Positions 4,216-22,966 of a stretch of 64,000 bases of DNA are shown here, piece by piece. The notes under the pieces are model-generated. The model saw nothing but the letters and a program-made list of their open reading frames with translations. It searched no databases and was not told the origin of the DNA. The stretch comes from Rhodothermus bifroesti. GTDB lineage: Bacteria > Bacteroidota > Rhodothermia > Rhodothermales > Rhodothermaceae. The stretch covers positions 310,001-374,000 of the forward strand of contig NZ_JAGKTL010000002.1 in assembly GCF_017908595.1 (NCBI RefSeq), written 5' to 3'. The position numbers and the translations under genes were made by a program. Numbering within the stretch: the stretch's first letter is position 1; every line of letters begins with the position of its first letter.

Positions 4216-4315
4216 CTTTCTCCTAGGCGGCATTGGATTGGTCCCCGCTCTTTTCGGTCGGTGCCAAGCCTGCAGGACCGGCTATTCCATCCAATTAGCC
4301 TTCCAGGAAGATATG

Positions 4316-7300: not shown

Positions 7301-7828
7301 AAGACAGTAGGGGAAACGACTGCCCAAAAAGGGCGGGCTGTAGTGGTGATTTGGGGTGATGAGCCGCTAACCGCTGTGAAAGAAGGGGCGCAAAGCGGCG
7401 AAGCCCTTGAACTTTGGTGGCATGATGCCGAAGGTATGCATCGATTGGAAGTGCAGTCCGTAGTTGATCTCCTTCAGGGAAAAACAGCGCCTGCAGCGCT
7501 TACGTTTGTGCCCGATCAGGTGTGGCGGGTGTCGGTTGCTGGTTTGCCTGGTTCCTTTAAGCTTGAAGGCCCTTACCCCAATCCCGCCGTGAACGCAGCA
7601 CATTTTGCCTATCAGCTCCCAGAGGCAGCTGAGGTGCGCCTAGAGGTGTACGACATGCTTGGGCGTCGGGTCGCAACGTTGATCGAAACGTTCCAGCAAG
7701 CTGGCAGCCACCGGGTGAGCTTCAATGTGCAGACGCTAGCTTCTGGGACTTATTTCTATCACTTTGAGGCCTCTGCGAGCACGGAGTCTTCTTTTAGGGC
7801 AATGGGTCAACTCCTCGTTGTGCACTAA
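4316..7828 (+). CDS. Large secreted c-type heme protein with type IX sorting domain, unknown function
   Basis: About 1170 residues from the ATG at 4316, chosen because AGGAAG (4305-4310) sits 5 bases upstream and a clean signal peptide follows (YVWGLLLGGMGVVFALG). Residues about 25-170 form a beta-rich domain. A cytochrome-c-like segment has C233-A-D-C-H237 and a following helix (EDEGKKIAAYIRSVDL). Residues about 290-790 are a large helical part rich in Trp and His that I do not recognise. Two tandem GWNL modules follow (about 798-1050; RAGWNLVSL and EAGWNLIPY). The C-terminal 85 residues are a type A Por/type IX sorting domain (YPNPAV, then LGRRVATL and SGTYFY). It should be exported and fixed at or released from the cell surface. 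A tandem paralogue starts 2 bases after the stop. Electron transfer is suggested by the heme site; the substrate is unknown. Confidence 0.8.
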   Translation: MPRKLRYVWGLLLGGMGVVFALGISHFSQADEEAVVTLPIEVVGPDGFTVDVELYVSDTTGVDSMYLKAHMLGYLYTPALEDTGGYDKKASFRINGGPWIPIDNAHFKAFWPESQMFTPPLTGPIGGPYRTLRGMISIRGTGRLRLGRNTITFRFNRTEGRSSGYRILALDLRRGGRRGVSVLQGTRFVWDDPASWRPPAGYDNPSAIEEGRRLWQARGILKGLAGERIVAACADCHTFDGRDLKYFNFSNPVIIQKAKLRGLSEDEGKKIAAYIRSVDLELPPGETVASCGGRPWDPPYQPGPGLSKRPVECWAAGAGIAWVLEKERDQLAFLAPDAASRAKLEALRGVPPSPEALGPVHADLSVENLVRRFDLKTSLPLTDIPVSYPMPDIFEWWPSVYPGDYFGDAVFHSSGVYKAYEAARAELPARRDALIEEARRYDTAGPFLRGLPVFFQFFAPTKAMPADLPTPPSWSDDSGEGELARLAFRQWTLIKLWELVHRYKLEDVTLAIYGEAAASRGIDLSGWKWNWPVRGMWVYDLATHKQGSPYPDIGPYPTKADDQYFSMAWYQLAQILNNGTRAVGGTTNVDWNYVFAHIDNVTGYYGRGHAAEYLKSLVAMMQTRTSWYLERGAPAWMTAGFGAQNRPGFQNLKEHMPLNWFYLGHGWRAKELTAEEMRNITEALLLVWIEEAERYDPVLHGAWIRQAKENTQHKLLLPVDTTYDVRHVRCDRQVPLDPNWWKDEAMLQFLYQAQCYGVRPQVLDRVARYMEQLSPGGNWERFFVEQSGSNTTQQTLVLRAGWNLVSLRVRAAEAELEVLLAPIRDRLILVKDKYGRVYSPELGINQIGHWDWQQAYMVLMSGAASLTVSGAAVDASTPIALEAGWNLIPYWPEQALPVQEALGSLGSALVLVKDVEGRLYFPAYGVQDLSVLEPGQGYKVYVQQAATLEYPHTSSAKREQPARYAASGKGGLLSSVLVVEHLPEGSRIAVRTADGKTVGETTAQKGRAVVVIWGDEPLTAVKEGAQSGEALELWWHDAEGMHRLEVQSVVDLLQGKTAPAALTFVPDQVWRVSVAGLPGSFKLEGPYPNPAVNAAHFAYQLPEAAEVRLEVYDMLGRRVATLIETFQQAGSHRVSFNVQTLASGTYFYHFEASASTESSFRAMGQLLVVH

Positions 7829-7830
7829 CG

Positions 7831-10519
7831 ATGATAAAAAGACTTGGGGGGACGAAAAAAGCGCTAGCGCTGGCGGGCTTACTCGGTCTGGGGATTGCGC
7901 TAACGGGCGCGCCCAAGTATTTGAAGGCCGATGAAGAGGCTGTGGTAATGCTGCCAATCGAGGTGATTGGTCCAGACGGCTTTACCGTCAGCGTCACTGT
8001 CTACGTGGCCGATACCACAGGGGTGGATTCGCTCTACCTAAAGGCCCACAACCTTGCTTACAAATACACGCCCGAGCTTGACGGCAGCGCAGACTACGAC
8101 AAGAAAGCGAGCTTTCGCATTAATGGAGGCGCATGGGTTCCTATCGATAATCAGCATTTCAAAGCATTCTGGCCAGAGGCGCAAATGTATGCGCCGCCGC
8201 TTACCGGCCCCATAGGTGGACCGTATCAGACGCTACGGGGCATGCTTTCTATTCGAGAGACTGGCCGGCTGCGTCCGGGTTTCAATACCATAGAATTCCG
8301 CTTTAATGGCACTGAGGGCATCAGTTCAGGCTATCGGGTGCTTGGGCTAGACCTAAAACGCGGGGGGCGAAACGGCCCCAGCGCGCTTGAGGGTACACGG
8401 TTTGTCTGGGATGACCCAGCCACATGGGAAGCGCCCGAAGGCTACGATACCGAAACGGCGCGACTCGAAGGCCAGCAGCTTTGGACCTCGCGCCGCATCT
8501 TGCTAGCCAATCCCCGCAATCCCGTACCTATTGTGGCTGCTTGCGCCGACTGCCATGCGACCAGTGGCTTTGACCTCAAATACTTTAATTTTTCCAATCG
8601 GGCCATTGTTGTGCGGGCGCAGTTCCATGGACTTTCAGAGGAAGAGGGCAAAAAGATTGCTGCTTATATCCGGTCGGTTGATCTAAAGCTGCCTCCCGGG
8701 GAAACGGTGTCCAGCTGTGGCGGTAGGCCGTGGGATCCGCCCTATCAGCCTGGGCCTGGGCTTTCGAAGCGTCCTGTCGAATGTTGGGCTGCAGGTGCAG
8801 GGCAAAAGTGGGTGCTCGAGACCGATCGCCAGATGCTGCCTTTTCTAGCGCCAAGTCCGGCCTTTCAGGCCGTGCTCGAGGCGCTTAGAGGCGTCCCAGA
8901 ACCCCATATGCTTCATCCTGAAGCTGATCTTGCTTGGGAGCATGTTTCCAAGTACTGGCGTCTTACCGAGACCCTGCCTGTAAGTGACATTCCGATCAGT
9001 TTTGAACTCCCAGACATTTTTGCCTGGTGGCCCCAGATCTATCCCGGCGACTTTTTCCCGGAAGCGGTCTGGCACAGCTCGCGCTATTACCAAAACTACC
9101 TTACTGTTAGACGCATGCTCGAAACGCGGGGTGCGGATGCCCTGATCGAAGAGCAACGCCGTGCAGCCGCCTCAACAGAGCTCGACCGGGGCGTAGCTAA
9201 ACTTTTCCGTGAGTACAACTTCCGTCTCAATCCCAAACATAACGCACATGAAGACTTGAACCCCCCGCTGGAGTGGGGCGGGCAATATCCTACGCACCCC
9301 AAAGGGCGGATGATGCATATCGCTGTAGCCCGCTGGTTTCTTATGAAAATGTGGGAGCTCCAAATGGAGCATAAGTTGGAGGATCGTTATGCCGACGTCT
9401 ATGGCGAAAACACGCGCGGAATTGATATGGCAAAAGCTGACCGGGCGTTGCTCTTGGATGGGCCTTGGCTGATGGACCAGACCATGCACCGCCTGTCGAA
9501 AAACGACGACGCTTTTGCTTCACCATTTCCAACACTGGCCCGGCATGGCTACGAAGACCTTGCCTGGTGGCACTTGGCTACCGTGCTCACGCCACGTTGG
9601 CGGGCCGATAATCCAAGTGGGGGGGGCGATCGATTGGTCTTACATCTACGAGCAAAGCCGGGATGCCCTTGTGCCTTACGGCCGGGATCACACCATTGGC
9701 CATCTTTACTATGTGATCATAGCCATGCAGGCCCATGCCTCTTTCTATGCTGGTGAAGGACAGCTACCAGGTTGGGGAACGCTTCGGCGCATCGGTATGC
9801 GTAACCTTAAGACCGCTACACCGCTGGCATGGTTTGGTGTACACTACATGCCCGTGAGCTTCCGGCGACTGGATCGGGATACCCTGCGCCTTATTACAGA
9901 AAACCTGCTTCGGGCTTGGCTCGAGGAAGCGGAGCGCTATGACCTCGCACACTGGCAAACGCTCTATGGACAGTCGACAGGCGGCTCAAAAGCCATCGAA
10001 CCTCCTGAGGTCACCTTTGATGTTCCTCAGCCAAGGTGTACAGCAGATGGCCACCCCGCAGCAAACGTCGAAATCAACGATTGGAAGAATCGGGCTTTTA
10101 TACAGTACCTCTATAATGCCCAGTGCCTTGAGGTTGACCCCAAGCTGCTTGACCGGGCAGCCCGTTTTTGGGAACAAATTTCGCCAGGGGGTAACTGGGA
10201 GCAGTTCTTTCTAGCGCTTTCGGATTCTACGCTAACGACCACAACGAACAACACGCCCTTAGATTTTCAAGCATACGATCCCTATCCCAACCCGAGCGCA
10301 GTGACGGTAACGTTTGTCTATACGCTACCGGAGCCTGCTGTGGTGCAGTTGGAGCTTTTTGACCTGACGGGGCGTCGGTTAAGCAGCGTAACGCTAGAGC
10401 AGTCTGCCGGAAAGCACCAGCACGTGATAGCTGTCGATCAGTGGGCTTCAGGGATGTATCTGTACCGGTTGCGGGCTGGACGCTTTGAACAGGTGGGACG
10501 GCTCCTGGTTGTACGCTGA
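7831..10519 (+). pseudogene. Paralogue of the 4316 heme protein, split by a +1 frameshift in a G8 run
   Basis: Frame 1 runs from the ATG at 7831 and stays parallel to the upstream paralogue (DEEAVV start after a signal peptide, CADCH heme site at C238) up to about 9618. It then continues in a meaningless frame to a stop at 9756. The homologous sequence resumes at once in another frame (AIDWSYIYEQ, matching NVDWNYVFAH in the paralogue) and runs to 10519, ending in a type A type IX sorting domain (YPNPSA). Removing one G from the G8 run at 9619-9626 restores one frame of about 895 residues. It lacks the two GWNL modules of its neighbour. It may be a true pseudogene, a slipped-strand switch or a sequencing error. 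The intact downstream frame argues that the break is recent or not real. Confidence 0.8.
9619..9626 (+). repeat. G8 homopolymer at the frameshift point
   Basis: Eight consecutive G after AAGT. Seven G would encode S-G-G-A-I-D-W and keep the two halves of the heme-protein gene in one frame; eight G shift it. A run of this length is prone both to slippage in the cell and to read errors. Confidence 0.85.
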
Positions 10520-11756: not shown

Positions 11757-12944
11757 ATGTCTTTTGTTCCGGAAAATCCTGAGGCCCAGATTTTGGCTCT
11801 TGCAGCCCGTACTACGCTCAGCAAGGCAGCTGCAGCTAAATTAGGTGCGCTGCTGGATGGCCCGGTAGACTGGGAGCGCCTTTACCGAATGGCTGTGCGT
11901 CATGGTTTGGTGGCGTTGCTTTACCGGCACATCCTGCAGGTTCGCCCACAGGTCTGCCCACCCGTTTGGCGTGAGCGTTTGGCTGCAGAAGCACGGGCTT
12001 TGGCAGTAAACAATCTGCAACAAACACAGGAGCTGCTGCGGGTTGTAGAGCGTCTAGAGGCCGAAGGAGTACCAGTCATTCCGTTTAAGGGACCTTCGCT
12101 AGCTGGATTGATTTATGGTGATCCCTCGGCGCGCGTCTACATCGATATTGATCTGTTGGTATGCCGGGAAGACTTCGCAAAAGCTCGTACTGTAATCGAA
12201 TCGCTGGGCTACGCAGCTTACCGACCGATCCGTCCAGGCGAAGAAGATGCGTTTTTAAAGACGCAGCTTGGTTTTGAATTTGTGCACCAAAGCGGTGCTT
12301 TTGTAATTGAATTACACTGGGCATTTTTTTACACGATCTATGATCTTCCCTTCGATCCACAGGCTGTTTGGGATCGGCACCAGCAAACCCTCTTTGCTGG
12401 TCGGCCGATGCGCACTATGGCGCCTGAAGACCTTTTGCTCTACCTGGTCATTCACGGCAACAAGCACCGCTGGCTGAAGCTCAATTGGGTGGCCGATGTG
12501 GCCGAGCTGATACGCAGCTACCCTGAGTTGGATTGGAAGTTTGTCTTAGCGCAGGCACGCCAGCTGGGCGTAATGCGTGTTTTGGAGATCGGCTTGGTTT
12601 TGGCGGGGGAGGTTTTGGATGCTCCTCTACCAGAGACCTTGCGGCAGCAACTTGCCCAAGCCCGCGCTGCCCGACGCATGGCGCGTCGCGCAGCACACCA
12701 ATGGATTTTCCGAGATGATGCCGATCCCAAGGCCTTCTGGCCGATGTTTTGGTATCACTTCTGGGAACGTGAGCGTTGGCAGCATCGCTGGGGTTACCTC
12801 AAACATAACCTCAAGCTGGCCCTAACACCCACTGAAAAGGACCGGGCATTTTGTCGCTTGCCCTCGTCGCTTTCGCTGCTTTATGTCTTTGTGCGACCGG
12901 TGCGTATCTTGCTTGAACGCCTTCAGCTCGACGTGAAACCATGA
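11757..12944 (+). CDS. Nucleotidyltransferase family protein (NTP_transf_5 type), RiPP tailoring candidate
   Basis: 395 residues. Residues about 108-140 show FKGPSLAGLIYGDPSAR followed by the DIDLLV acidic pair. These form the metal site of the uncharacterised nucleotidyltransferase family PF14907. Proteins of this family recur in lasso-peptide and other RiPP loci, frequently with an HPr-kinase-like protein, as here at 17016. It would transfer a nucleotidyl or related group from NTP in the cytoplasm. The stop overlaps the next ATG (ATGA at 12941), so it is translationally coupled to the GMC oxidoreductase. The exact substrate is unknown; a phosphorylated precursor peptide is one idea, by analogy with known kinase/nucleotidyltransferase pairs. 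Confidence 0.75.
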   Translation: MSFVPENPEAQILALAARTTLSKAAAAKLGALLDGPVDWERLYRMAVRHGLVALLYRHILQVRPQVCPPVWRERLAAEARALAVNNLQQTQELLRVVERLEAEGVPVIPFKGPSLAGLIYGDPSARVYIDIDLLVCREDFAKARTVIESLGYAAYRPIRPGEEDAFLKTQLGFEFVHQSGAFVIELHWAFFYTIYDLPFDPQAVWDRHQQTLFAGRPMRTMAPEDLLLYLVIHGNKHRWLKLNWVADVAELIRSYPELDWKFVLAQARQLGVMRVLEIGLVLAGEVLDAPLPETLRQQLAQARAARRMARRAAHQWIFRDDADPKAFWPMFWYHFWERERWQHRWGYLKHNLKLALTPTEKDRAFCRLPSSLSLLYVFVRPVRILLERLQLDVKP

Positions 12945-14584
12945 AAATCGATCTCCGGGATTTCGGGGGCAACACGCTAGGGCCATATGACCTGTGCATT
13001 ATTGGCGGAGGGATAGCAGGACTTACGCTGGCCTGGGCATTGCGCCGTAGTGGTTTAGGCCTATGTGTGTTGGAGACAGGGGGAGAACGACCGGAACCGG
13101 AGACCCATCGCCTCAGCCGTGGCGACATTACGGGCTATCCGTACTTCCCACTGGATATGGCTCGTGCCCGTGCCTTAGGCGGCTCGAGTCACCTTTGGGA
13201 TTATGAAGTTGCACCAGGTACACCGCGTGTTCGCTTGCGTCCACTAGACCCTATCGACTTTGAGCGGCGGGAAGCCGTGCCTTGGAGCGGGTGGCCCTTT
13301 GGTTATGAAACCTTAGCACCCTACTACCAGCAGGCACAGACCTTTTTTGGACTGCCTGAACGGCCTTATACCCCCGAGGCCTGGAGCAGCACCACCACGC
13401 AGCCCTTGCTTTCTGCGGATAGCGCAGTGTTGCGCACCGCGCTGTTTCAGTTTGGGGAGACAGCGCGCTTTTACACCTTCTATGGGCCAGAGCTGCTCGC
13501 CGACCCACACGTTACCGTCTGTCTGCATGCACATGTGCTAGAGTTGCTCACCGATGCCACCGGGCAGGTAGTAGAAAGCGTACGGGTAGGATGCCCAGGC
13601 GGCCGGGAAATCACCGTGCAGGCCCGCTGCTTTGTACTGGCCGCTGGCGGATTGGAGAATGCACGCTTGCTTTTGCTTTCTAACCGCACCTGGCCTAACG
13701 GATTGGGTAATGCCCATGACCGGGTGGGGCGGTTTTTTATGGAACACCTGCATTTTTTATCCGGAGTTTTTGTACCTCGGGAGCGCAAGTTGATCCCTCA
13801 ACTTGGCTTTTATCGGCTACATGCTTGCAATGGTGTTTGGATTATGGGCAAGCTGGCACTTCAGGAAACCGTTGTGCGACAAGAAGGCTTGCTGAACTAT
13901 TGCGTAGCCCTTTGGCCAACGGATCGTTCAGCCCTGCCGCGCCGCAATAACCCCCTCCTCTGGGGTGGATATGAAGCGCTGCGCGTGCTGCGTGAGGCCA
14001 TACGTCATCGCACCTGGCCTGAGCACCTGCCACACCAGCTCATGCGCCTGGTGCGGGATGCCCCGCGCCTTGTTCCATGGGCAACCTCGCGACTGCTGGC
14101 GCTGAAAGCCAAATCCCAAACGGAAACGAAATCTCCTGTGGCTTTTGTCCTGCACCACATGACCGAACAGGCCCCTAACCCGGAAAGCCGCGTGCGGCTT
14201 TCTCGAAGAAAGGATGCTTTTGGCCAACCACGACTGGAGCTGCACTGGCAGATTAGCCGCCAAGACGTAGAAAGTCTGCTGCAAGCACAACAACTTTTAG
14301 CCCAAGAACTGGCTCGGCAAGGTTGGGGAACCGTGCAGGTAGAAACCCTAGATCGCATCCCGCCCTCCGGCATTACCGGAGGGTTTCACCACATGGGAAC
14401 AACGCGCATGCACGCCAGTCCCCGTGAAGGTGTGGTAGATCCCGACGGCCGGGTGCATGGCGTAAAAAATCTGTACATTACTGGGTCCTCTGTTTTCCCT
14501 ACCGTAGGGTTTGCCAACCCTACCCTAACCATTGTAGCCCTCGCCTTGCGGCTAGCCAATCACTTGAAAACGCGTCTAACCTAG
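12941..14584 (+). CDS. GMC-family FAD-dependent oxidoreductase
   Basis: 547 residues. The FAD-binding GGGIAG turn is at residues 22-27, with the ribose-binding Glu of VLETGG about 20 residues later. The C-terminal GMC domain has the FHHMGTTRMHASP segment, with the His expected at the flavin, and ends ITGSSVFPTVGFANPTL. This is typical of the sugar/alcohol dehydrogenase branch. It oxidises an alcohol, possibly a sugar hydroxyl, with FAD as acceptor. It is coupled by overlap to the nucleotidyltransferase and lies 7 bases before the next gene, so it belongs to the same operon. A tailoring role on the RiPP or its sugar is inference from position. Confidence 0.85.
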   Translation: MKIDLRDFGGNTLGPYDLCIIGGGIAGLTLAWALRRSGLGLCVLETGGERPEPETHRLSRGDITGYPYFPLDMARARALGGSSHLWDYEVAPGTPRVRLRPLDPIDFERREAVPWSGWPFGYETLAPYYQQAQTFFGLPERPYTPEAWSSTTTQPLLSADSAVLRTALFQFGETARFYTFYGPELLADPHVTVCLHAHVLELLTDATGQVVESVRVGCPGGREITVQARCFVLAAGGLENARLLLLSNRTWPNGLGNAHDRVGRFFMEHLHFLSGVFVPRERKLIPQLGFYRLHACNGVWIMGKLALQETVVRQEGLLNYCVALWPTDRSALPRRNNPLLWGGYEALRVLREAIRHRTWPEHLPHQLMRLVRDAPRLVPWATSRLLALKAKSQTETKSPVAFVLHHMTEQAPNPESRVRLSRRKDAFGQPRLELHWQISRQDVESLLQAQQLLAQELARQGWGTVQVETLDRIPPSGITGGFHHMGTTRMHASPREGVVDPDGRVHGVKNLYITGSSVFPTVGFANPTLTIVALALRLANHLKTRLT

Positions 14585-14591
14585 AAAAACC

Positions 14592-15788
14592 ATGTCGGCT
14601 TCCTATCGCATTGGCGTTGTGGGTAGCGGCTTTATCGCCCGCGGTTTTGTCATGGCTATGCAGCATGTGAAAGACTTGCGCGTTACGCGCGTGCTTACGC
14701 GTACCGATCCACGGACGCGCAAGGATTTCCCGCGTCCAGAACTGCTCACGAACAGCATCGACGACCTGATTGAGCACTCGGATATTGTCGTGGAGTGTAG
14801 CGGGGACGTTGTGCATGCAAGTGAAGTGGTCGATCGCGTGCTGCAAGCGGGTTTGCCTGTGGTAACGATGGATGCCGAGTTCCACGTGACCACAGGGTCT
14901 TATTTTGTGGACCGCGGCCTGCTGACCGAAGCTGAAGGCGACCAGCCGGGCTGTTTGGCAGCGCTTCGAGAAAACATCCTGCAAATGGGCTTTCGGCCAC
15001 TAGTTTACGGCAACATCAAGCGCTTTCTAAATCATAATCCTACGCCCGAAGAAATGCATTTCTGGGCGCGCAAGCAAGGCATCACGCTACCACAGGTAAC
15101 GGCTTTTACCGACGGCACCAAAGTGCAAATCGAGCAGGCCCTGGTGGCCAACGGCTTAGGTGCCGATATTGCGGTGCGCGGCATGCTGGGCATCCCTTCG
15201 CCCGATGTAGAAGCAGGCGCGCGCATGCTGGCCGACGGCGCTCGTCGTTTAGGGCATCCAATCAGCGACTATGTGCTTTCGCCGGGGGCCCCAGCTGGCG
15301 TGTTTATTGCCGCCGAGCACGACGAGTATCAGCGGGATTATCTGCAGTACCTCAAATTGGGGGATGGACCCTACTACGTGCTCCTACAGCCCTTCCACCT
15401 GTGCCACCTAGAAATCCAAAAAACCATCCGACGTGTGCTTTTCGAACAGCGCATCTTGCTGAACAACACAGCTTATCCGCGGATTAGCGTAGCCGCCGTT
15501 GCCAAACGGCGGCTAGCCAAAGGGACCCGCATTGAGCGTGGCATAGGGAGCTTCGAGGTACGCGGAGAAGCTATTCGCATTTTAGATGAGCCAGATCATG
15601 TACCCATAGGCCTTTTGGCCAACGCGGTGCTCACGCGGGACGTCGATGCTGGCGAATTGATCCATTTCGACGATGTGGAGTTGCCCGATACGTTGGCCCT
15701 TCATGCCTGGCAGACTGTTCTAGAGCGCGTTCGGTTGAAAAAGCCAGCGCCTGAGGCGCAAGCTTTAGCCTCGGCAACAGGCGAATGA
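14592..15788 (+). CDS. NAD(P)-dependent dehydrogenase with C-terminal SAF domain
   Basis: 398 residues. The N-terminus is a Rossmann fold (IGVVGSGFIARGFVMAM, GxGxxA/G type) like homoserine dehydrogenase and Gfo/Idh enzymes. The middle (FTDGTKVQIEQALVANGLG) is the catalytic or dimerisation part. The last 90 residues are an SAF-like domain (AKRRLAKGTRIERG, then VLTRDVDAGELIHFDDVE), as seen at the end of sialic-acid synthases and altronate dehydratases. Proteins of this shape are found near sugar and lipid tailoring genes, but their substrate is generally unknown. It sits inside the operon of the RiPP locus. Confidence 0.75.
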   Translation: MSASYRIGVVGSGFIARGFVMAMQHVKDLRVTRVLTRTDPRTRKDFPRPELLTNSIDDLIEHSDIVVECSGDVVHASEVVDRVLQAGLPVVTMDAEFHVTTGSYFVDRGLLTEAEGDQPGCLAALRENILQMGFRPLVYGNIKRFLNHNPTPEEMHFWARKQGITLPQVTAFTDGTKVQIEQALVANGLGADIAVRGMLGIPSPDVEAGARMLADGARRLGHPISDYVLSPGAPAGVFIAAEHDEYQRDYLQYLKLGDGPYYVLLQPFHLCHLEIQKTIRRVLFEQRILLNNTAYPRISVAAVAKRRLAKGTRIERGIGSFEVRGEAIRILDEPDHVPIGLLANAVLTRDVDAGELIHFDDVELPDTLALHAWQTVLERVRLKKPAPEAQALASATGE

Positions 15789-15825
15789 CGCCAGTATGCC
15801 ATAAATAAACCAAAGCACCATAGCA

Positions 15826-16965
15826 ATGAACAGGCGAACGCAGCGTCTCAATAGGCTATGGCGTTGGGGGAGTGTAGGCGTGCTCGCATGGTTTGGCTTG
15901 AGCTATGCTGCCTACTGGATTCCGCCAGAATTCGCCTGGTGGCTGCAATTGTTAGCTGTAGGCTTGCCCATATGGGTTGCCCTACTCGTCGTTTGGGCGA
16001 TAGGTTTAGCCTGGGTACGTGCTTGGACGCACCTGGCAAGTGTGCTCATCGCTATTGGACTGTACCTACTGCGCCACGAGCATCTTTCAGGATGGTCTAG
16101 GGCAGATGCTGCACGCGACACGCTCGTGGTCATGACCTACAACATTCCCGATAGCCGAAGACCTGCGCTTGCCGACTCTCTAGCCGTGCTTGTGGCACGC
16201 TACCGGCCGCAGCTTATGGGCTTTCAGGAAGTGGGTATCTGGTGGTATTTACGCCCAGGACAGCGTACCTCGCTGCGGCTTGTGGCCCACCTGAACCCTC
16301 TGGTCGAGCGTCAGGGCTATTTGCCTTCGAAGCCCGATCTTGAGATAGGGCCCCTTTTTGCTGAAGTGGTTACCTTGACACGCTTGCCTGTATTGGCACA
16401 GCAAATCCACCCTCTGGCTGAAGATACCGATGCCCTGATCTATCAGGCGGTACGCAGCACGCTCTGCTGGGAAGGTCGGCCTTTTGTGCACTACAACGTG
16501 CGACTGCAGTCATACGGGCCTGTTAAACCCTGGGAAGTGATGCGCCATGGCGGCTGGAAGCATCCTGCCACCTGGCGTCGGTGGCTTAGGGCCTATCGCC
16601 AGGCCATGCTGGAACGCGCGCGGCAGGTACGGCAGCTTCGCGCGTGGATCGACCAAGAGCAGCTGCCGGTCATTGTAAGCGGAGACTTCAACAGTACACC
16701 TGACCAGTGGTTCTATGGGCATCTTGCCCGAGGGCTACGAGCAGCTGGACGCCTAGGTGGTGTTGCAGCGCCTTCGTGGCCTTCGACGCGTCCCCTAGTG
16801 CGCATCGATCATGTACTGGTAAGTCCAGAATGGGAAGTGTTAGAAGGAGACGTGCCTGCAACAAGACTTTCAGATCACCGCCCAGTCATTGCCCGCTTGC
16901 GCTGGCGCCCAGCATTGGCATATGCCAAAACTTGTTCTACAGATGCGCCGATAGCGTATCCGTAA
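15826..16965 (+). CDS. Membrane-anchored endonuclease/exonuclease/phosphatase (EEP) family protein
   Basis: 379 residues. Three hydrophobic segments fill about residues 14-88 (VGVLAWFGLSYAAYWI, LLAVGLPIWVALLVVWAIGL, LASVLIAIGLYLL). After them comes an EEP catalytic domain: TYNI at its start, the metal Glu in MGFQEV, VIVSGDFNST, IDHVLVS and the terminal SDHRPV. All key catalytic motifs are present, so it should be an active Mg-dependent phosphodiesterase or phosphatase. The domain probably faces the periplasm. Some EEP members cleave DNA, others lipids or phospho-sugars; here the context cannot decide. Gaps of 37 and 50 bases to the neighbours fit operon membership. Confidence 0.8.
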   Translation: MNRRTQRLNRLWRWGSVGVLAWFGLSYAAYWIPPEFAWWLQLLAVGLPIWVALLVVWAIGLAWVRAWTHLASVLIAIGLYLLRHEHLSGWSRADAARDTLVVMTYNIPDSRRPALADSLAVLVARYRPQLMGFQEVGIWWYLRPGQRTSLRLVAHLNPLVERQGYLPSKPDLEIGPLFAEVVTLTRLPVLAQQIHPLAEDTDALIYQAVRSTLCWEGRPFVHYNVRLQSYGPVKPWEVMRHGGWKHPATWRRWLRAYRQAMLERARQVRQLRAWIDQEQLPVIVSGDFNSTPDQWFYGHLARGLRAAGRLGGVAAPSWPSTRPLVRIDHVLVSPEWEVLEGDVPATRLSDHRPVIARLRWRPALAYAKTCSTDAPIAYP

Positions 16966-17015
16966 GGCGCAGCGGTCCTATTAGCTTGAAATCTCCAGAA
17001 GATAGGCAGCCTGAT

Positions 17016-17954
17016 ATGTCGGTATCGACCGTTCACAGTAGACCTTGGCCATTTCACTACACGGTCTACGGTCTGCACCTATGCTCCGAAGTGCCACTGC
17101 CTGAGCTCAAGCCGGTTGCCCCGGCCGAAGGGGACGTCTACATCTACCGCGACGAGCTTGCGCCGCTGGCCGATGGGCTCCAGCGCCGCGGTAATCGCCT
17201 GCGTGTGACGCCTACCGAAGCGTTGCTCATCTATGACCAGGTTGGACTGTTGCGCATTGAGGCAGGCCAAAAAATTACGTTCGACGTGCCCCAAGACCTC
17301 CCAGATGAAACGCTGCGCGTGTTGATTTTAGGCATTGGGCTGGGCATCCTCATGCATCAGCGGGGGCATTTAGTCCTACACGCCAGCGCTGTGGCCATCG
17401 GTGAGCGCGTAGTAGCCTTTATTGCCGAAAAAGGGCATGGTAAGTCGACTATGGCCGCTGCACTACATGCCCAAGGCTATCCCCTGGTGACCGACGACGT
17501 GCTTGTGCTGCAGGAGCAGCCCGATGGTCCTCCCCTCGTGTTGCCTGCCTATCCGCAGCTTAAGCTATGGCCTGATGCGCTCGAACAAGCCCTCAAAATG
17601 CAAACCGACGGCTTGCCCCGGGTGCACCCCATCATTGAAAAACGGGTAGCCCGTTTGTCAGAAGGCGTGGCCCATCCCTTACCTCTAAGTGCACTTTTTA
17701 CCCTGCGCATTGGTGAGCACGTGAGGATTCGACCTTTAAGCGGACAAGAAGCTTTTGTGGAACTTTTGCTCCATACCTACACCCGCTCCCTTCTAGAAGA
17801 AACCCAAGCCTCGGCCCGCCACTTGCAACAAGTGGGCTCCCTGGCACGCTACGTCCCTTTATTCGTCTTAGAACGCCCTCCCAGACTAGAATTGCTGCCC
17901 GAAGTAGTTGCAGCAGTAGAAGCCTTTATGCAACGTCAGCAAGAGACCGCATGA
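17016..17954 (+). CDS. HPr-kinase-like protein of the RiPP locus
   Basis: 312 residues from the ATG at 17016; the frame is open from 16707, but that overlaps the EEP gene. A P-loop GHGKST lies at about residues 139-144 (AEKGHGKSTMAAAL), followed by VTDDVLVL, the acidic pair of HPr kinase/phosphorylase-type folds. The N-terminal 100 residues are a beta-rich domain seen in the HPr-kinase-like proteins of lasso-peptide clusters. Some of those enzymes phosphorylate the precursor peptide. The stop overlaps the start of the cyclase gene (ATGA), so the two are coupled. It is likely cytoplasmic and ATP-dependent, with a precursor peptide as the probable substrate. Confidence 0.75.
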   Translation: MSVSTVHSRPWPFHYTVYGLHLCSEVPLPELKPVAPAEGDVYIYRDELAPLADGLQRRGNRLRVTPTEALLIYDQVGLLRIEAGQKITFDVPQDLPDETLRVLILGIGLGILMHQRGHLVLHASAVAIGERVVAFIAEKGHGKSTMAAALHAQGYPLVTDDVLVLQEQPDGPPLVLPAYPQLKLWPDALEQALKMQTDGLPRVHPIIEKRVARLSEGVAHPLPLSALFTLRIGEHVRIRPLSGQEAFVELLLHTYTRSLLEETQASARHLQQVGSLARYVPLFVLERPPRLELLPEVVAAVEAFMQRQQETA

Positions 17955-19966
17955 GCGCTATCTTTGGGTTGATTCATTTCGATGAGCAGCCGGTCGACAC
18001 CGAAACGCTTCAGCCCGCCTGGGACCTGCTGCGTCACCGAGGACCAGACGGCCACAACCGCTGGCAGGATGGCTCGGTACTACTAGCACATTGGCGGTTC
18101 TGCACAACCCCAGAGTCGCTGCACGAGCAGCAGCCTCTTGTAGCTCCAGAGGGGAACTTGGTCCTGGTAGCAGATGCGCGCATCGATAATCGCGAGGAAC
18201 TTTTAAAAACGCTGGGACTGCATGCCCGCGCGGAAAGGGTTCCTATCACCGACGCCGAGTTGATCTTGGCCGCTTACCAGCGCTGGGGTACCGAGTGCCC
18301 TGATCGACTTATTGGCGACTTTGCGTTTGCGATTTGGGATCGGCTGGCGCGCCGACTGTTTGCTGCCCGGGATGGCATGGGCGTCCGGCCTTTCTACTAT
18401 CTTTATGATGGCCGTCGCTTTGCCTTTTGCACCTTGCTTCCTGCACTGCGCCAGCTGCCTGGCGTGCCCCAAGAGATCGACGAAGAAATGATTTTGCGCT
18501 TTTTGGCGCAGCAAATCGATAGTGAAAAAGAACGAACCTTTTATGCCGCACTGCGGCGGCTTCCAGGAGGACATGCCCTGCAAGTAGACAAACAAGGATT
18601 GCAGATCTGGCAGCACTGGCAACCCAACTTTGAAGAACTACGCTTAGGCACCGAAGAAGCATATGCCGAGGCCTTTCGCGCTACTTTTGAAGAGGCAGTC
18701 CGCTGTCGGCTGCGAAGCCGCTCTCCCGTGGGATCGCAGCTCAGTGGTGGACTGGATTCATCGTCGGTATCTTGCATGGCTGCTTTCTTACTCAGGGACC
18801 AACCACTTCACACCTACTCGGCCATTTTCCCAGACCTTCCCGAAGCGCAACGGCCCGCCATGGATGAACGGGCCTACGTGGAGGCCGTGCATCGGCGCTA
18901 CCCAAACATCGCCCCGCATTTCTTTCGACCTGAATTTGAAAGCCCATTGGTGGCCCTGGAAACGATCCTGGACTACTATGGCCAGCCTTTTTTTGCATCG
19001 AATTATCATTTCCTGTGGGGGTTTACTCAGCTTGCCCAGCGAGATGGCGTGCGGGTGATGCTTGACGGCGTCGACGGCGACAGTGTAGTGCTGCATGCCT
19101 GGGAACGACTAACGTGGCTGTTCCAAGACGGGCAATGGGCGACCTTCAAGCAAGAAGCCGATGCCTTTGCCGCACATCTGGGTAAGCCATCGGCAGCCAT
19201 TGCACGGCAGTTTGCAGGTCCAGCCCTGACCACTTGGGGCCGACAGCACCAGTGGCTTCGTTTGTATAAAGCCGTGCGCTGGCTCAAGCAGGCCTATGGC
19301 TTGCCTGCTTCAGAACTGCTACGTATTCACGGTCTGTGGCCACATGTACCCAAGCCTGTGTTTCGCCGCTGGCAACAGTGGCGCGGCCGTCAACAACCCG
19401 TCGATGCACCCGTACTCTCGCCGCGGCTGGCTGCCTGGATGCGACGTAATGGCGCAGCTGCTGCTTCTGGCCAAAGTTCACCTGCTGCGGCTCACTGGCA
19501 AGGACTAACGAGGGGCCTATGGCAGTGGGTCTTGGAATTTTCGGATGCACTTAATGGTCTTCAAGGTATTGAGGAACGCATGCCCTTTTTTGATCGACGC
19601 CTGATCGAACTGAGCCTGCGCATTCCGATTGAAATGAAGTTTCGCCAGGGTTGGCCGCGCTATGTGTTGCGGCGGGCTCTGGAAGGCATCCTGCCACCTG
19701 AAGTGCAATGGCGCGCCAGTAAGTCTAACATAGGATTTGGTTTTCATCAAGGATTGCTGCGCTATGAGCACGCGCGCATTAAGGCACTGCTCGAGGAACC
19801 TGTGCAGCTAGCGCCTTTTGTGACAGCGGAAGCGTTACAGGCGTTGTGGACACAGGCACAGCGGCCCCCAGAGCAGAACGGGAACGCTGATTTTATGCTA
19901 TATCTTCTTTTGATCCTCGATGCGTGGCTCAAAGGGCACGCGGCGAATGTGATTGCATCTGCCTAG
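17951..19966 (+). CDS. Asparagine synthetase homologue resembling lasso cyclase (C protein)
   Basis: 671 residues. The N-terminal class II glutaminase-like half starts M-S-A-I-F-G where true glutamine-dependent enzymes have M-C-G; the catalytic Cys2 is thus Ser, so ammonia release is not expected. The C-terminal half is an intact ATP pyrophosphatase: SGGLDSSSVSC at about residue 264 and DGVDGD at about 373. In lasso pathways this enzyme activates an Asp/Glu side chain as an acyl-AMP and closes a macrolactam. Here both candidate precursors lack an acid at ring positions 7-9, so the bond formed must differ, for example at the C-terminal carboxylate. Its place between the kinase gene and the first precursor supports a role in their maturation. 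Confidence 0.85.
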   Translation: MSAIFGLIHFDEQPVDTETLQPAWDLLRHRGPDGHNRWQDGSVLLAHWRFCTTPESLHEQQPLVAPEGNLVLVADARIDNREELLKTLGLHARAERVPITDAELILAAYQRWGTECPDRLIGDFAFAIWDRLARRLFAARDGMGVRPFYYLYDGRRFAFCTLLPALRQLPGVPQEIDEEMILRFLAQQIDSEKERTFYAALRRLPGGHALQVDKQGLQIWQHWQPNFEELRLGTEEAYAEAFRATFEEAVRCRLRSRSPVGSQLSGGLDSSSVSCMAAFLLRDQPLHTYSAIFPDLPEAQRPAMDERAYVEAVHRRYPNIAPHFFRPEFESPLVALETILDYYGQPFFASNYHFLWGFTQLAQRDGVRVMLDGVDGDSVVLHAWERLTWLFQDGQWATFKQEADAFAAHLGKPSAAIARQFAGPALTTWGRQHQWLRLYKAVRWLKQAYGLPASELLRIHGLWPHVPKPVFRRWQQWRGRQQPVDAPVLSPRLAAWMRRNGAAAASGQSSPAAAHWQGLTRGLWQWVLEFSDALNGLQGIEERMPFFDRRLIELSLRIPIEMKFRQGWPRYVLRRALEGILPPEVQWRASKSNIGFGFHQGLLRYEHARIKALLEEPVQLAPFVTAEALQALWTQAQRPPEQNGNADFMLYLLLILDAWLKGHAANVIASA

Positions 19967-19970
19967 CTAC

Positions 19971-20012
19971 ATGCGCCAAAGACGCATCGCAAGCATGGCA
20001 GAATACGTACGC
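19971..20012 (+). promoter_or_regulatory. Two-part regulatory element upstream of precursor 1
   Basis: The inverted repeat ATGCG-N7-CGCAT (19971-19987) contains GCGCCAAAGACGC, and ACGTACGC follows at 20005-20012. The same two boxes with the same 33-base offset lie before precursor 2. In both cases ACGTACGC starts 75-76 bases before the start codon. An AGTTGTTTT stretch at 20044-20052 could be a Bacteroidota-type -7 region, which would put the boxes just upstream of -33, as for an activator. Confidence 0.6.
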
Positions 20013-20079
20013 ACAATGCCAAAAATTTTAAGATCCTATAAACAGTTGTTTTCTCAAACCCAATCTTAAAGGTGCCGCT

Positions 20080-20229
20080 ATGAAGGCCAAACGCACGTGG
20101 AGTGCCCCCACCTTAGTCATTCACGGCAAGGTGGAAGAAGTGACGCACCAGCGAGGCCCATGTTACCTGGGTAAGCAGGGTGGCAAAGGAGATGTGCATG
20201 CCTTGACTTTGAGTGATTGCCATCACTAA
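20080..20229 (+). CDS. RiPP precursor peptide 1, lasso-type leader
   Basis: 49 residues, start ATG at 20080 with AAAGG 7 bases upstream. The leader reads W7-S-A-P10-T-L12-V-I-H-G16-K-V-E-E-V-T22, an exact match in spacing to the lasso leader pattern Y-xx-P-x-L-xxx-G-x5-T, with Trp for Tyr. In that rule the core begins two residues after Thr22, at Q24. The predicted core has 26 residues, Cys at 28 and 47, acids only at D38 and D46, and ends C-H-H. A lasso ring would need Asp/Glu at core position 7-9, and none is there. The two Cys could form a disulfide or thioether. It follows the cyclase gene and is followed by a strong terminator. A small gene like this is easily missed by annotation. Confidence 0.8.
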   Translation: MKAKRTWSAPTLVIHGKVEEVTHQRGPCYLGKQGGKGDVHALTLSDCHH

Positions 20230-20278
20230 GAAAAAAAGTTAAGGTGCGGCACTCCTTAAGCTGTTCCTGTTTTCCTCC

Positions 20279-20312
20279 GCATCCCCATCCCCAAAGATGG
20301 GGATGCTTTTTT
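20279..20312 (+). terminator. Strong intrinsic terminator after precursor 1
   Basis: An 11-bp perfect stem, GCATCCCCATC (20279-20289) with GATGGGGATGC (20296-20306), a 6-base loop and then TTTTTT. It separates precursor 1 from precursor 2 and the exporter, so the peptide message can end here while precursor 2 has its own upstream boxes. Confidence 0.95.
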
Positions 20313-20330
20313 AAAGAATGCGCCATTGGC

Positions 20331-20372
20331 TTGCGCCAAAAGCGCATGAGTGAGGAGGTAGAGAACGTACGC
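20331..20372 (+). promoter_or_regulatory. Two-part regulatory element upstream of precursor 2
   Basis: TGCGCCAAAAGCGCA (20332-20346, inverted repeat TGCG-N7-CGCA) and ACGTACGC (20365-20372) repeat the arrangement before precursor 1, with identical offset and nearly identical distance (76 bases) to the start codon. AGTAGTTTAT at 20403-20412 aligns with AGTTGTTTT at precursor 1 and resembles the Bacteroidota -7 box TAnnTTTG. The surrounding bases are not conserved, which argues for selection on the boxes. Confidence 0.65.
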
Positions 20373-20440
20373 TCTGCAGAAAGGGGAGGGGTATGTTGTA
20401 AAAGTAGTTTATTCCTGTTGTACCTTTCGCGGAGGTTGTT

Positions 20441-20659
20441 ATGCAGTACGCGAAAAAGCCATGGTCACGTCCCGCCCTGGTGTCGTTTGGTTCTGTGGAG
20501 GTGATTACGGGCTCAGGCTTTGGCAATCCCCCATGGCTTCCTTTTAATTGGAAGCCGCCTCACTGGCGTCCCCCGAACTGGCCGCCGGGACCTAATTCAG
20601 GCAATGGGGGGACGAATCAGCCGATACCGCTTGGAGGGCCGAATTTGAGTGGGCTCTAA
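20441..20659 (+). CDS. RiPP precursor peptide 2, lasso-type leader with Trp/Pro-repeat core
   Basis: 72 residues, ATG at 20441 with GGAGG 5 bases upstream. The leader is W8-S-R-P11-A-L13-V-S-F-G17-S-V-E-V-I-T23, again exactly the lasso leader spacing. After Thr23 the core contains tandem pentads NWKPP, HWRPP, NWPPG (residues 36-50), preceded by PPWLPF, then a Gly/Asn/Pro tail ending LSGL. After Glu20 there is no Asp or Glu, so an Asp/Glu side-chain macrolactam is impossible. It also lacks Cys. It lies directly before the ABC exporter. Modification may use the Trp rings, the Asn residues or the C-terminal carboxylate. Confidence 0.82.
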   Translation: MQYAKKPWSRPALVSFGSVEVITGSGFGNPPWLPFNWKPPHWRPPNWPPGPNSGNGGTNQPIPLGGPNLSGL

Positions 20660-20732
20660 GCAGGGCACTAGGAAAAAAGGAGGCCGCAAGTTATTTTCCA
20701 TCAAGCTTGCAGGGGAGCGTTGATCCATCCAT

Positions 20733-22625
20733 ATGCTGCGGCGACTTTTTAGGTTGGGCTTGGTGGTGCAGACGGCCCGCAAGAAGGCCTCCTATGTGGC
20801 GCAAGCCCTTCAGCTGATCCTTCAAGCCACAGGTCGCTGGACCTTAGGGTGGGTTCTTTTGCTGTTACTAAGTGGGGTGCTGCCGGCCGCCACAGTATAC
20901 CTAACCAAGCACGTGGTCGATGCTGTGGCGGCGGCAGTAGGCATGGGGTTATCGTGGGCTACGATCCAGCCGGTGCTTTGGCCTGCGGGGCTAATGGGCG
21001 TAGTGCTGCTGCTTTCGCAAGGGCTCCATGGGCTAATTGCATGGATTCGCACGGCTCAGGCAGAGCAGGTGCTGGATTACGTCAAGAACCTTATCCATGC
21101 CAAAGCCGCTGCGGTTGATGTAGCCTTCTATGACAATCCTGACTACTACGATCACCTAGAGCGGGCCAATAGCGAAGCCTCTAGCCGCTCGCTTTCGCTT
21201 TTAGACAACCTGGGCAGCTTGCTGCAAAACAGCGTTACGCTCCTTAGCATTGCTGCTATTTTGGTCCATTACAGCGCTTGGTTACCTTTGGCGCTTTTGG
21301 TGAGCACGCTGCCGGCATTGGTGGTTGTGGTGCGGCATCACCAACGCGAGCATGCTTGGTGGAAGGCGCATACGTCGGAGCAGCGCAAGGCGGGCTACTT
21401 CGACCGGATGCTTACCATGGCTTTTTTTGCGCCAGAGGTGCGGGTGTTTGACCTGGCTGATTATTTTCGGCAAAACTACCAGCAGGTGCGGCAGCGATTG
21501 CGTGAGGGTCGACTACGCTTGATGCGTCAGCAAGCACTGGCCAATTTCGGCGCAGGCCTGATCGGTTTAGTGGCTACAGCGCTGGTGATGGTATGGATGA
21601 TTGGGCGGGCTTTCCGCGGGCTAGCTTCACTCGGCGACTTGGCGCTTTTTTACCAAGCGTTTAATCAGGGCCAGGGACTCATGCGCGCGCTTTTGGGTAG
21701 CGCGGGACAGATGTATGCCAACACGCTTTTCCTGGAGCACTTGTTTACGTTTCTTGAAATTCCCACGCGGCTTCCTGAGCCCGATCGCCCCGTGCCCGTA
21801 CCTAGAAGGCTTCGGGAAGGTATCCGCTTTGAGCAGGTTACGTTTCGTTATCCAGGTAGCCAGCAGCCTGCGCTGAAGGCACTTGAGTTGTTCATCCCAG
21901 CAGGCAAGACCGTTGCGGTTGTGGGCGCCAATGGAGCGGGCAAAAGCACACTGATCAAGCTGCTGTGCCGGTTTTACGATCCTGATGAAGGACGGATTAC
22001 CATCGATGGGATAGACCTGCGGCAGTTTCGAAAGCGTGAGCTGCTCGATGCGATCACCGTGCTGTTTCAGTTTCCGGTGCCGTATCAGGACACCGTAGCG
22101 CGCAACATCTTCCTGGGAGATATTAAAACGCCGCCTACCCCTGAAGCCATTGAAGAGGCTGCCCGGAGCGCTATGGTCGATGAAATCGTGCGTAAACTGC
22201 CGCAGGGCTACGATACGCTCCTGGGGAAATGGTTTTCTGAAGAGGGCGTGGAACTTAGCGGTGGAGAGTGGCAACGGGTTTCACTGGCAAGGGCATTTTA
22301 CCGGCAGGCACCGATTGTGGTCCTCGACGAGCCGACGAGTGCTATGGATTCCTGGACCGAAGCGGAATGGATGGATCGGTTTGGCCGGCTGGTGCATGGT
22401 CGCACTGCCCTGATTATCACGCATCGCTTTACGACCGCTATGCGAGCGGATCTAATTTATGTCATGGATGAAGGGCGTGTGATTGAACGAGGTACGCACC
22501 ACGAGCTTTTGGCCCTAAACGGACATTACGCAGCTTCCTGGCAGCGTCAGATGCGCCAGCATTTTGAAGGTGCACTTCAGACGGCTACGCAAGATTCCTT
22601 GCCGGAGGCTTTTTGCAAGTTGTAG
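20733..22625 (+). CDS. ABC transporter, fused permease and ATPase (RiPP exporter)
   Basis: 630 residues. The first 330 hold the six-helix exporter membrane domain (for example VLLLLLSGVLPAATVYL and LIGLVATALVMVWMIG). The ATPase follows: Walker A GANGAGKST at about residue 395, the signature LSGGEWQRVSLARAF at about 507, Walker B VVLDEPTSAMD at about 529 and the switch His in ITHRF. There is no N-terminal C39 peptidase domain, so it does not remove a leader itself. Lasso D transporters have this layout. It follows precursor 2 by about 70 bases and precedes the PqqD-like gene. It probably exports the mature peptide across the inner membrane and gives self-protection. Confidence 0.88.
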   Translation: MLRRLFRLGLVVQTARKKASYVAQALQLILQATGRWTLGWVLLLLLSGVLPAATVYLTKHVVDAVAAAVGMGLSWATIQPVLWPAGLMGVVLLLSQGLHGLIAWIRTAQAEQVLDYVKNLIHAKAAAVDVAFYDNPDYYDHLERANSEASSRSLSLLDNLGSLLQNSVTLLSIAAILVHYSAWLPLALLVSTLPALVVVVRHHQREHAWWKAHTSEQRKAGYFDRMLTMAFFAPEVRVFDLADYFRQNYQQVRQRLREGRLRLMRQQALANFGAGLIGLVATALVMVWMIGRAFRGLASLGDLALFYQAFNQGQGLMRALLGSAGQMYANTLFLEHLFTFLEIPTRLPEPDRPVPVPRRLREGIRFEQVTFRYPGSQQPALKALELFIPAGKTVAVVGANGAGKSTLIKLLCRFYDPDEGRITIDGIDLRQFRKRELLDAITVLFQFPVPYQDTVARNIFLGDIKTPPTPEAIEEAARSAMVDEIVRKLPQGYDTLLGKWFSEEGVELSGGEWQRVSLARAFYRQAPIVVLDEPTSAMDSWTEAEWMDRFGRLVHGRTALIITHRFTTAMRADLIYVMDEGRVIERGTHHELLALNGHYAASWQRQMRQHFEGALQTATQDSLPEAFCKL

Positions 22626-22672
22626 TTTCTGTTGCAGTGATCTTTAAGCCTTTTTCTACCGACAGTCAGTCT

Positions 22673-22966
22673 ATGGAGCGCACCCTACTCAGCATGAACG
22701 CTATTGTGGTGGCATCTTCGGATCAGGTTTCGTCGAAGTTGGGCGATGAGGTAGTGATTTTGAATTTGCGCAATGGGGTTTACTATGGTTTGGACCCGGT
22801 GGGTGCGCGCATTTGGGAGCTTATACAGGAGCCTCGTAGTGTGCAGGAGGTTTGTGCTGTTTTGCTTGAGGAGTACGAGGTTACGCTGGAGCAATGCGCC
22901 AGCGACGTGCTGGCTTTGCTGCGCAACCTAGAGGCTCAAGGGCTAATTGAGGTTCGTGCGGTTTAG
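22673..22966 (+). CDS. PqqD-like leader-peptide binding protein (RRE, lasso B1 type)
   Basis: 97 residues from the ATG at 22673; the frame opens at 22613 inside the end of the exporter gene, so the internal ATG is preferred. The fold is a winged helix of the PqqD family: SSKLGDEVVILNLRNGVYYGLD (the beta-strand leader-docking part), then GARIWELI and a C-terminal helix pair. Free-standing proteins of this type bind the leader motif of lasso precursors and present them to the partner enzymes. No transglutaminase-like B2 peptidase gene follows: the next gene is convergent and its stop overlaps this one by 3 bases. This marks the right end of the RiPP locus. Confidence 0.85.
   Translation: MERTLLSMNAIVVASSDQVSSKLGDEVVILNLRNGVYYGLDPVGARIWELIQEPRSVQEVCAVLLEEYEVTLEQCASDVLALLRNLEAQGLIEVRAV

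Follow-up and report, generated by a model that had tools for sequence, protein, structure and literature searches.

The window analyzed here, a 64,000-nucleotide stretch of Rhodothermus bifroesti DNA, contains a lasso peptide cluster in which a second small precursor gene (P2) lies behind the lasso precursor gene (P1). The question raised by this locus is what kind of peptide P2 encodes, given that an earlier note had described its core as a Trp/Pro pentad repeat free of acidic residues. The literature library searched held no report on Rhodothermus lasso peptides or on a second non-acidic precursor.

The P2 gene and its cluster

The gene order was HprK-like kinase, AsnB cyclase, P1, P2, ABC exporter and PqqD. 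The features are listed below.

11757-12944, + strand: NTP_transf_5 nucleotidyltransferase (PF14907), possible tailoring enzyme
17010-17954, + strand: HprK-like peptide kinase; partial match to TIGR04352 under the cut-off; His, GHGKS and DD motifs
17951-19966, + strand: AsnB-type lasso cyclase; NF033535, 714.8 bits against a cut-off of 525; SGGLDSSS intact
19972-19986, + strand: palindromic element TGCGCCAAAGACGCA, upstream of P1
20080-20229, + strand: P1, NCBIfam 'rhodolasso' lasso precursor, 49 aa; NF033534, 102.6 bits against a cut-off of 30
20279-20306, + strand: intrinsic terminator between P1 and P2; 11-bp stem and T run
20332-20346, + strand: the same palindromic element, TGCGCCAAAAGCGCA, upstream of P2
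20441-20659, + strand: P2, second precursor, 72 aa; ORF with homologues in seven Rhodothermus genomes
20441-20512, + strand: P2 leader, residues 1-24; W8 (-17), P11 (-14), L13 (-12), T23 (-2)
20513-20656, + strand: P2 core, 48 aa; SGFGNPP, Trp/Pro pentads, Gly/Asn stretch, NLSGL end
20733-22625, + strand: MsbA-like ABC exporter; PF00005 and MsbA-type NCBIfam matches
22676-22966, + strand: PqqD-type RRE (B1); PF05402 and NF033536 (lasso PqqD) over the cut-off
6848-7792 of separate locus L064 (about 166847-167791 of contig C2, genome G000): remote B2-type leader peptidase, the only Transglut_core3 of the genome

The P2 ORF (20441-20659, + strand) translates as MQYAKKPWSRPALVSFGSVEVITGSGFGNPPWLPFNWKPPHWRPPNWPPGPNSGNGGTNQPIPLGGPNLSGL. 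It has a good ribosome-binding site, with GGAGG shortly 5' of the ATG. Pairwise dN was well under dS among the close homologues, core included. For the core, dS was 0.78 and dN 0.14 between genomes G003 and G146, and dS was 0.24 and dN 0.04 between G016 and G099. These values indicate that the P2 gene, including its core, is under purifying selection. By these sequence measures the ORF is a real gene.

The matches to NF033535 (715 bits) and NF033536 (over the cut-off) bore out the earlier proposal that P2 is a RiPP-type precursor tied to AsnB and PqqD genes. The cyclase begins with MSAIFG, with Ser in place of the glutaminase Cys. The kinase scored under the HprK_rel_A cut-off; its His, GxGKS and DD motifs were intact in the cluster kinases of all seven Rhodothermus genomes inspected. 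No leader peptidase (Transglut_core3) was found in the cluster. The one Transglut_core3 of the genome, of B2 type, lies approximately 163 kb away with a second PqqD beside it, and a single remote Transglut_core3 followed by a second PqqD was present in 7/7 Rhodothermus genomes. The parts of these remote loci that were read (L064-L070) showed no precursor gene. In other Rhodothermus species, translations inspected by eye suggested additional ORFs for an NTP transferase and another HprK-like kinase, placed between and beside the B2 and PqqD genes of the remote locus.

The terminator between P1 and P2 is strong, and five further genomes had an equivalent hairpin at this position, in six gene pairs in all. 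The 15-bp palindrome was also found in most relatives, upstream of P1, P2 or both. Genome-wide, the palindrome TGCGCCAAARRCGCA matched at 20 sites when one mismatch was allowed, and its reversed control at none. Several of these sites (among L075-L094) were intergenic. Rfam gave no matches in the 10-26 kb part of the window.

Leader and core of P2 compared with lasso precursors

The RRE-binding motif [Y/W]xxPx[LVI..] and leader positions -17, -14 and -12 have been published (PMC13381572, PMC10368454). A leader Trp or Tyr lay exactly 15 residues before Thr in 28 of the 29 precursors compared, P2 included, and this spacing places Trp, Pro and Leu at -17, -14 and -12. The P2 leader thus has the [Y/W]xxPx[L/V/I] motif with Thr at -2 expected of a lasso leader. 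It matched the rhodolasso and lasso_cyano leader models weakly, and P2 scored 17.1 against NF033534 (cut-off 30). A P1 sequence and the P2 family were aligned over the leader by hhalign (E 2e-4), and the P1/P2 alignment continued into GS(C/G)W immediately past it. An LS motif near the C-terminus is common to both. B1, B2 and the cyclase are all encoded with P2, although B2 is not adjacent.

The core differed. Its start was placed by the rule of Thr at -2, with TGSG running from Thr23 onward and the core taken to begin two residues after Thr. In this register Asp or Glu was present at core positions 7-9 in 12 of 13 lasso precursors of other Rhodothermales genera and in none of the seven P2 sequences. 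The sole acidic residue of the window P2 is Glu20, in the leader, and Cys is absent. As the window core has no acid at all, an isopeptide ring is excluded there in any register. The earlier claim that P2 could not form a lasso isopeptide was therefore upheld, both by the acid-free window core and by the family count at core 7-9. Judged on its predicted sequence, P2 falls outside the lasso class on a defining feature, though its leader and machinery are of the lasso-pathway type. An alternative internal ring in the R. marinus-type P2 (G-R-N-H-W-W-H-D, 8 residues) was considered and rejected; its Asp is His in G146 and is missing elsewhere, and the pattern was taken as chance.

The position of cleavage carries a caution. 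P1 and its homologues break the Thr(-2) rule, with the nearest suitable Asp at core 12-15 and not 7-9 (window 20080-20229; L044 11829-12188; L046; L072; L049). They share a conserved G-K-x-G-G-x-x-D 8-mer that starts 7-9 residues past Thr, after a conserved Cys, and have a second conserved Cys near the C-terminus. The explanation may be a shifted cleavage site in Rhodothermus or an unusual P1 ring. This misfit makes the cleavage rule uncertain for the genus and hence also the start of the P2 core. A shifted cleavage would give a later core start, and the window core would be acid-free even then.

Lasso cyclases are known for activating Asp and Glu side chains. An unusual macrocyclization of P2 by AsnB, either head to tail through the C-terminal carboxylate or through another nucleophile and acid pair, would depart from this chemistry and is rather improbable. 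The adenylating cyclase does adjoin P2, the window core offers no other carboxylate, and the non-standard acid position of P1 means that the Rhodothermus cyclase may itself be atypical. The C-terminal residue is however unconserved, being Leu, Pro or Ile by species, and the last residues and the core length (35-48) differ among species. This also counts against the closure through the C-terminal Leu implied in the earlier note.

The P2 family in Rhodothermus

P2 homologues were found in 7/7 Rhodothermus genomes searched. P2 adjoins the lasso genes in six of these, while in G016 a contig break splits AsnB from P2. In all Rhodothermus genomes with an intact contig P2 is located between the lasso precursor or precursors and the ABC exporter. 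The possibility that such proteins are structural, with no link to PqqD or AsnB genes, was thereby set aside, as the linkage is kept across the genus. A search of 146 genomes of the class and a pattern scan of genome contigs gave real members in Rhodothermus only. Weak class-level matches (L009-L013; E 0.002-0.009) had no lasso-leader ORF and were rejected. The family profile found no credible member outside Rhodothermus in 394 genomes of the phylum; the single match, in G024 (E 9e-4), covered the core only (profile positions 27-68).

In the alignment the N-terminal half is constant (KK.W.RP.L...G.....TGSG(W/F)G.PP..P), the middle varies, and P...LS close to the C-terminus is again constant. 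The family-wide constants are TGSG(W/F)GxPP after the leader and the C-terminal LS. Two serines of the core are invariant: S25, which directly follows the leader, and S70, part of the C-terminal LS. R. marinus-like genomes have a middle rich in Gly, Trp and Lys; that of G016 and G099 is rich in His, and that of the window P2 in Trp and Pro.

PPWLPF, NWKPP, HWRPP and NWPPG are consecutive in the window core, exactly as the earlier note had described. Trp occurs at position 8 of the leader and then at 32, 37, 42 and 47, an exact period of five. When the 48-residue core was shuffled, all four core Trp fell at a spacing of five in 0.0135% of shuffles and at equal spacing of any size in 0.17%. This statistic was picked post hoc; it shows that the spacing in this peptide is truly regular and says nothing of a function. 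At least two WxPP motifs occurred in 2.2% of shuffles, a frequency due to the 13 Pro of the core. The 15-nt units are too diverged in DNA to show a recent tandem duplication as the origin of the pentads.

The pentad was absent from the six other homologues, which have 3-5 irregularly spaced Trp, and as a conserved signature of P2 it was rejected. On the alignment it is one species' version of the variable segment. The six homologues also carry one to four Asp and one Cys near their C-termini. The earlier observation that no Asp, Glu or Cys follows Thr23 thus holds for the window P2 and fails as a family trait. Across the aligned sequences the absence of any acidic residue is species-specific, while the absence of a ring acid is common to the whole family.

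These comparisons bear on the idea that the repeat Trp are modification sites (oxidation, crosslinking or prenylation), for example through the GMC or DRL oxidoreductases encoded upstream. The exact period in the window species would fit such a role, and the GMC and DRL genes are also upstream in G014 and G016. The 19-kb loci that keep P2 in G003 and G006 contain homologues of neither. No radical-SAM, halogenase, P450 or other Trp-acting family was present among the eight cluster proteins scanned. Trp-modified RiPPs combine a conserved Trp motif with a dedicated enzyme, and neither was found in the P2 alignment and the cluster proteins scanned. Repeated Trp modification, which the earlier note had suggested, is accordingly very improbable.

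If P2 were a decaying duplicate of P1, drifting after loss of the ring acid, this would account for the common leader and for the P1/P2 alignment that extends into GS(C/G)W. Against this, P2 is kept in 7/7 genomes with its core under purifying selection, TGSGxGxPP and LS are invariant, and its position is set apart from P1 by a terminator. Decay is disfavoured on these patterns and was considered the most improbable of the explanations.

In G099 two divergent cyclase cassettes were observed (L049 on contig C60 and L050 on contig C74). Their AsnB proteins share 59% identity, and a P2 leader comes after each cassette. One cassette has an additional precursor that bears a leader but differs in its core, MLHYNVSKRPWEKPVLKAYG... 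The double cassette may represent tandem cassettes or a strain mixture.

P2 could alternatively be an uncleaved accessory of lasso biosynthesis, with a leader that competes for or holds the RRE, or with a Trp-rich body that acts as scaffold or carrier for the cyclase, lasso peptide or exporter. In the seven gene pairs inspected P2 immediately precedes the exporter and follows a terminator; this position and the P2 leader after both G099 cassettes are consistent with an accessory role. Two fixed ends and a variable middle would suit a tether. The G099 pair may however come from a strain mixture in the MAG, the composition predicts no structural fold, and the invariant Thr(-2) and TGSG junction would not be needed in a peptide that is never cleaved. 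An accessory role was considered unlikely, though less so than cyclization or Trp modification.

A predicted linear companion peptide and related systems

The favored reading, held at about even probability, is that P2 gives rise to a linear companion, not itself a lasso, which accompanies the lasso peptide of the same cluster. Its retention in 7/7 genomes, the lasso-type leader, the ring acid in 0/7 and the purifying selection on the core count for it. So do the single remote Transglut_core3 with its second PqqD, the intact kinase motifs and the invariant S25 and S70. The sub-cut-off kinase score and the misfit of P1 to the Thr(-2) rule count against it, and by sequence the cyclase may yet act on P2 through some unfamiliar chemistry.

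For such a linear companion, the single PqqD-type RRE of the cluster would bind P2 through W8, P11 and L13 as it would P1; since both leaders carry WxxPxL equally far from Thr, the same RRE should recruit both. The remote B2-type peptidase, encoded with the second PqqD, would cut after Thr23-Gly24. The cyclase would leave P2 untouched, and the HprK-like kinase would phosphorylate one invariant core serine, S25 or S70. The ABC exporter would then secrete a weakly cationic, Trp-rich linear peptide of approximately 48 residues. The variable middle, Trp-Pro pentads included, would be tuned per species while both ends stay fixed. A stronger form, in which one RRE and one exporter serve a two-peptide system that pairs a lasso (or a peptide with disulfides) with a linear, Trp-rich phosphopeptide as its obligate partner, is tentative and falls well below even probability.

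The closest documented parallel, by analogy of leader and gene content, is the linear polyphosphorylated peptides (LPPs), which are known from Bacillota only and often lie beside lasso clusters (Nat Commun 2026, PMC13381572). They are linear, have a lasso-like leader, an RRE, an HprK-like kinase, an NTP transferase and an MsbA-like exporter without a cyclase, and are phosphorylated at Ser3 (PMC13381572). That a lasso-like gene set lacking a cyclase can produce linear phosphopeptides counts for the linear-companion reading. P2 resembles LPPs in its [Y/W]xxPx[V/L] RRE-binding leader, conserved N-terminus, variable C-terminus and lack of a ring. The RRE, HprK-like kinase, NTP transferase and MsbA-like exporter are also shared, those of P2 all lying within 11757-22966. 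In G003 and G006 the 19-kb loci lack an NTP_transf_5 gene. An LPP system has an RRE of its own and an SpI-like leader peptidase, and its leader motif, YxxPxVLxHQxIxFETxxS, is longer. P2, in contrast, would share the RRE of the lasso cluster and has a WxxP leader without HQxIxFET; its leader, WSRPALVSFGSVEVITGS, does not match the LPP motif. No SpI-like leader peptidase was present among the cluster proteins scanned. P2 was not classed as an LPP because the leader extension and an SpI peptidase in the cluster are both missing.

The phosphorylated lasso peptides (paeninodin family; Bradymonas Bsf, PMC10368454) share with P2 the set of B1, kinase, nucleotidyltransferase, cyclase and ABC transporter. 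In Bradymonas the HprK-like BsfK phosphorylates Ser3 of the lasso core, aided by its RRE (PMC10368454). The leaders of these systems have the same -17/-14/-12 motif, with Thr at -2 in most and Ile in Bsf. Their cores have Asp or Glu at 7-9 and form a lasso, unlike P2, and B2 lies within the Bsf cluster whereas it is remote in Rhodothermus. The rhodolasso peptides (NF033534, P1) share leader geometry, cluster, RRE and the LS near the C-terminus with P2, but have two conserved Cys and G-K-x-G-G-x-x-D, both absent from P2. Animal Trp/Pro-rich antimicrobial peptides of the indolicidin type are short and weakly cationic, like P2 in composition, and are not known to be homologous to it.

If the linear-companion reading is true, a single lasso RRE would deliver one of two substrates of the same cluster to the cyclase and let the other bypass it, and P2 would test how the cyclase selects when leaders are interchangeable. 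Linear peptides of lasso machinery would then extend beyond Bacillota. Genome mining that scores lasso precursors by their ring acid misses P2, which was present in every Rhodothermus genome examined (seven).

Elsewhere in the window, the frame at 7831-10519 appears split into two overlapping ORFs (7831-9756 and 9515-10519), and the protein resembles that of the upstream neighbor at 4238-7828. The split may be a frameshift or a sequencing error. A similar split of matches was observed in G014 and G016.
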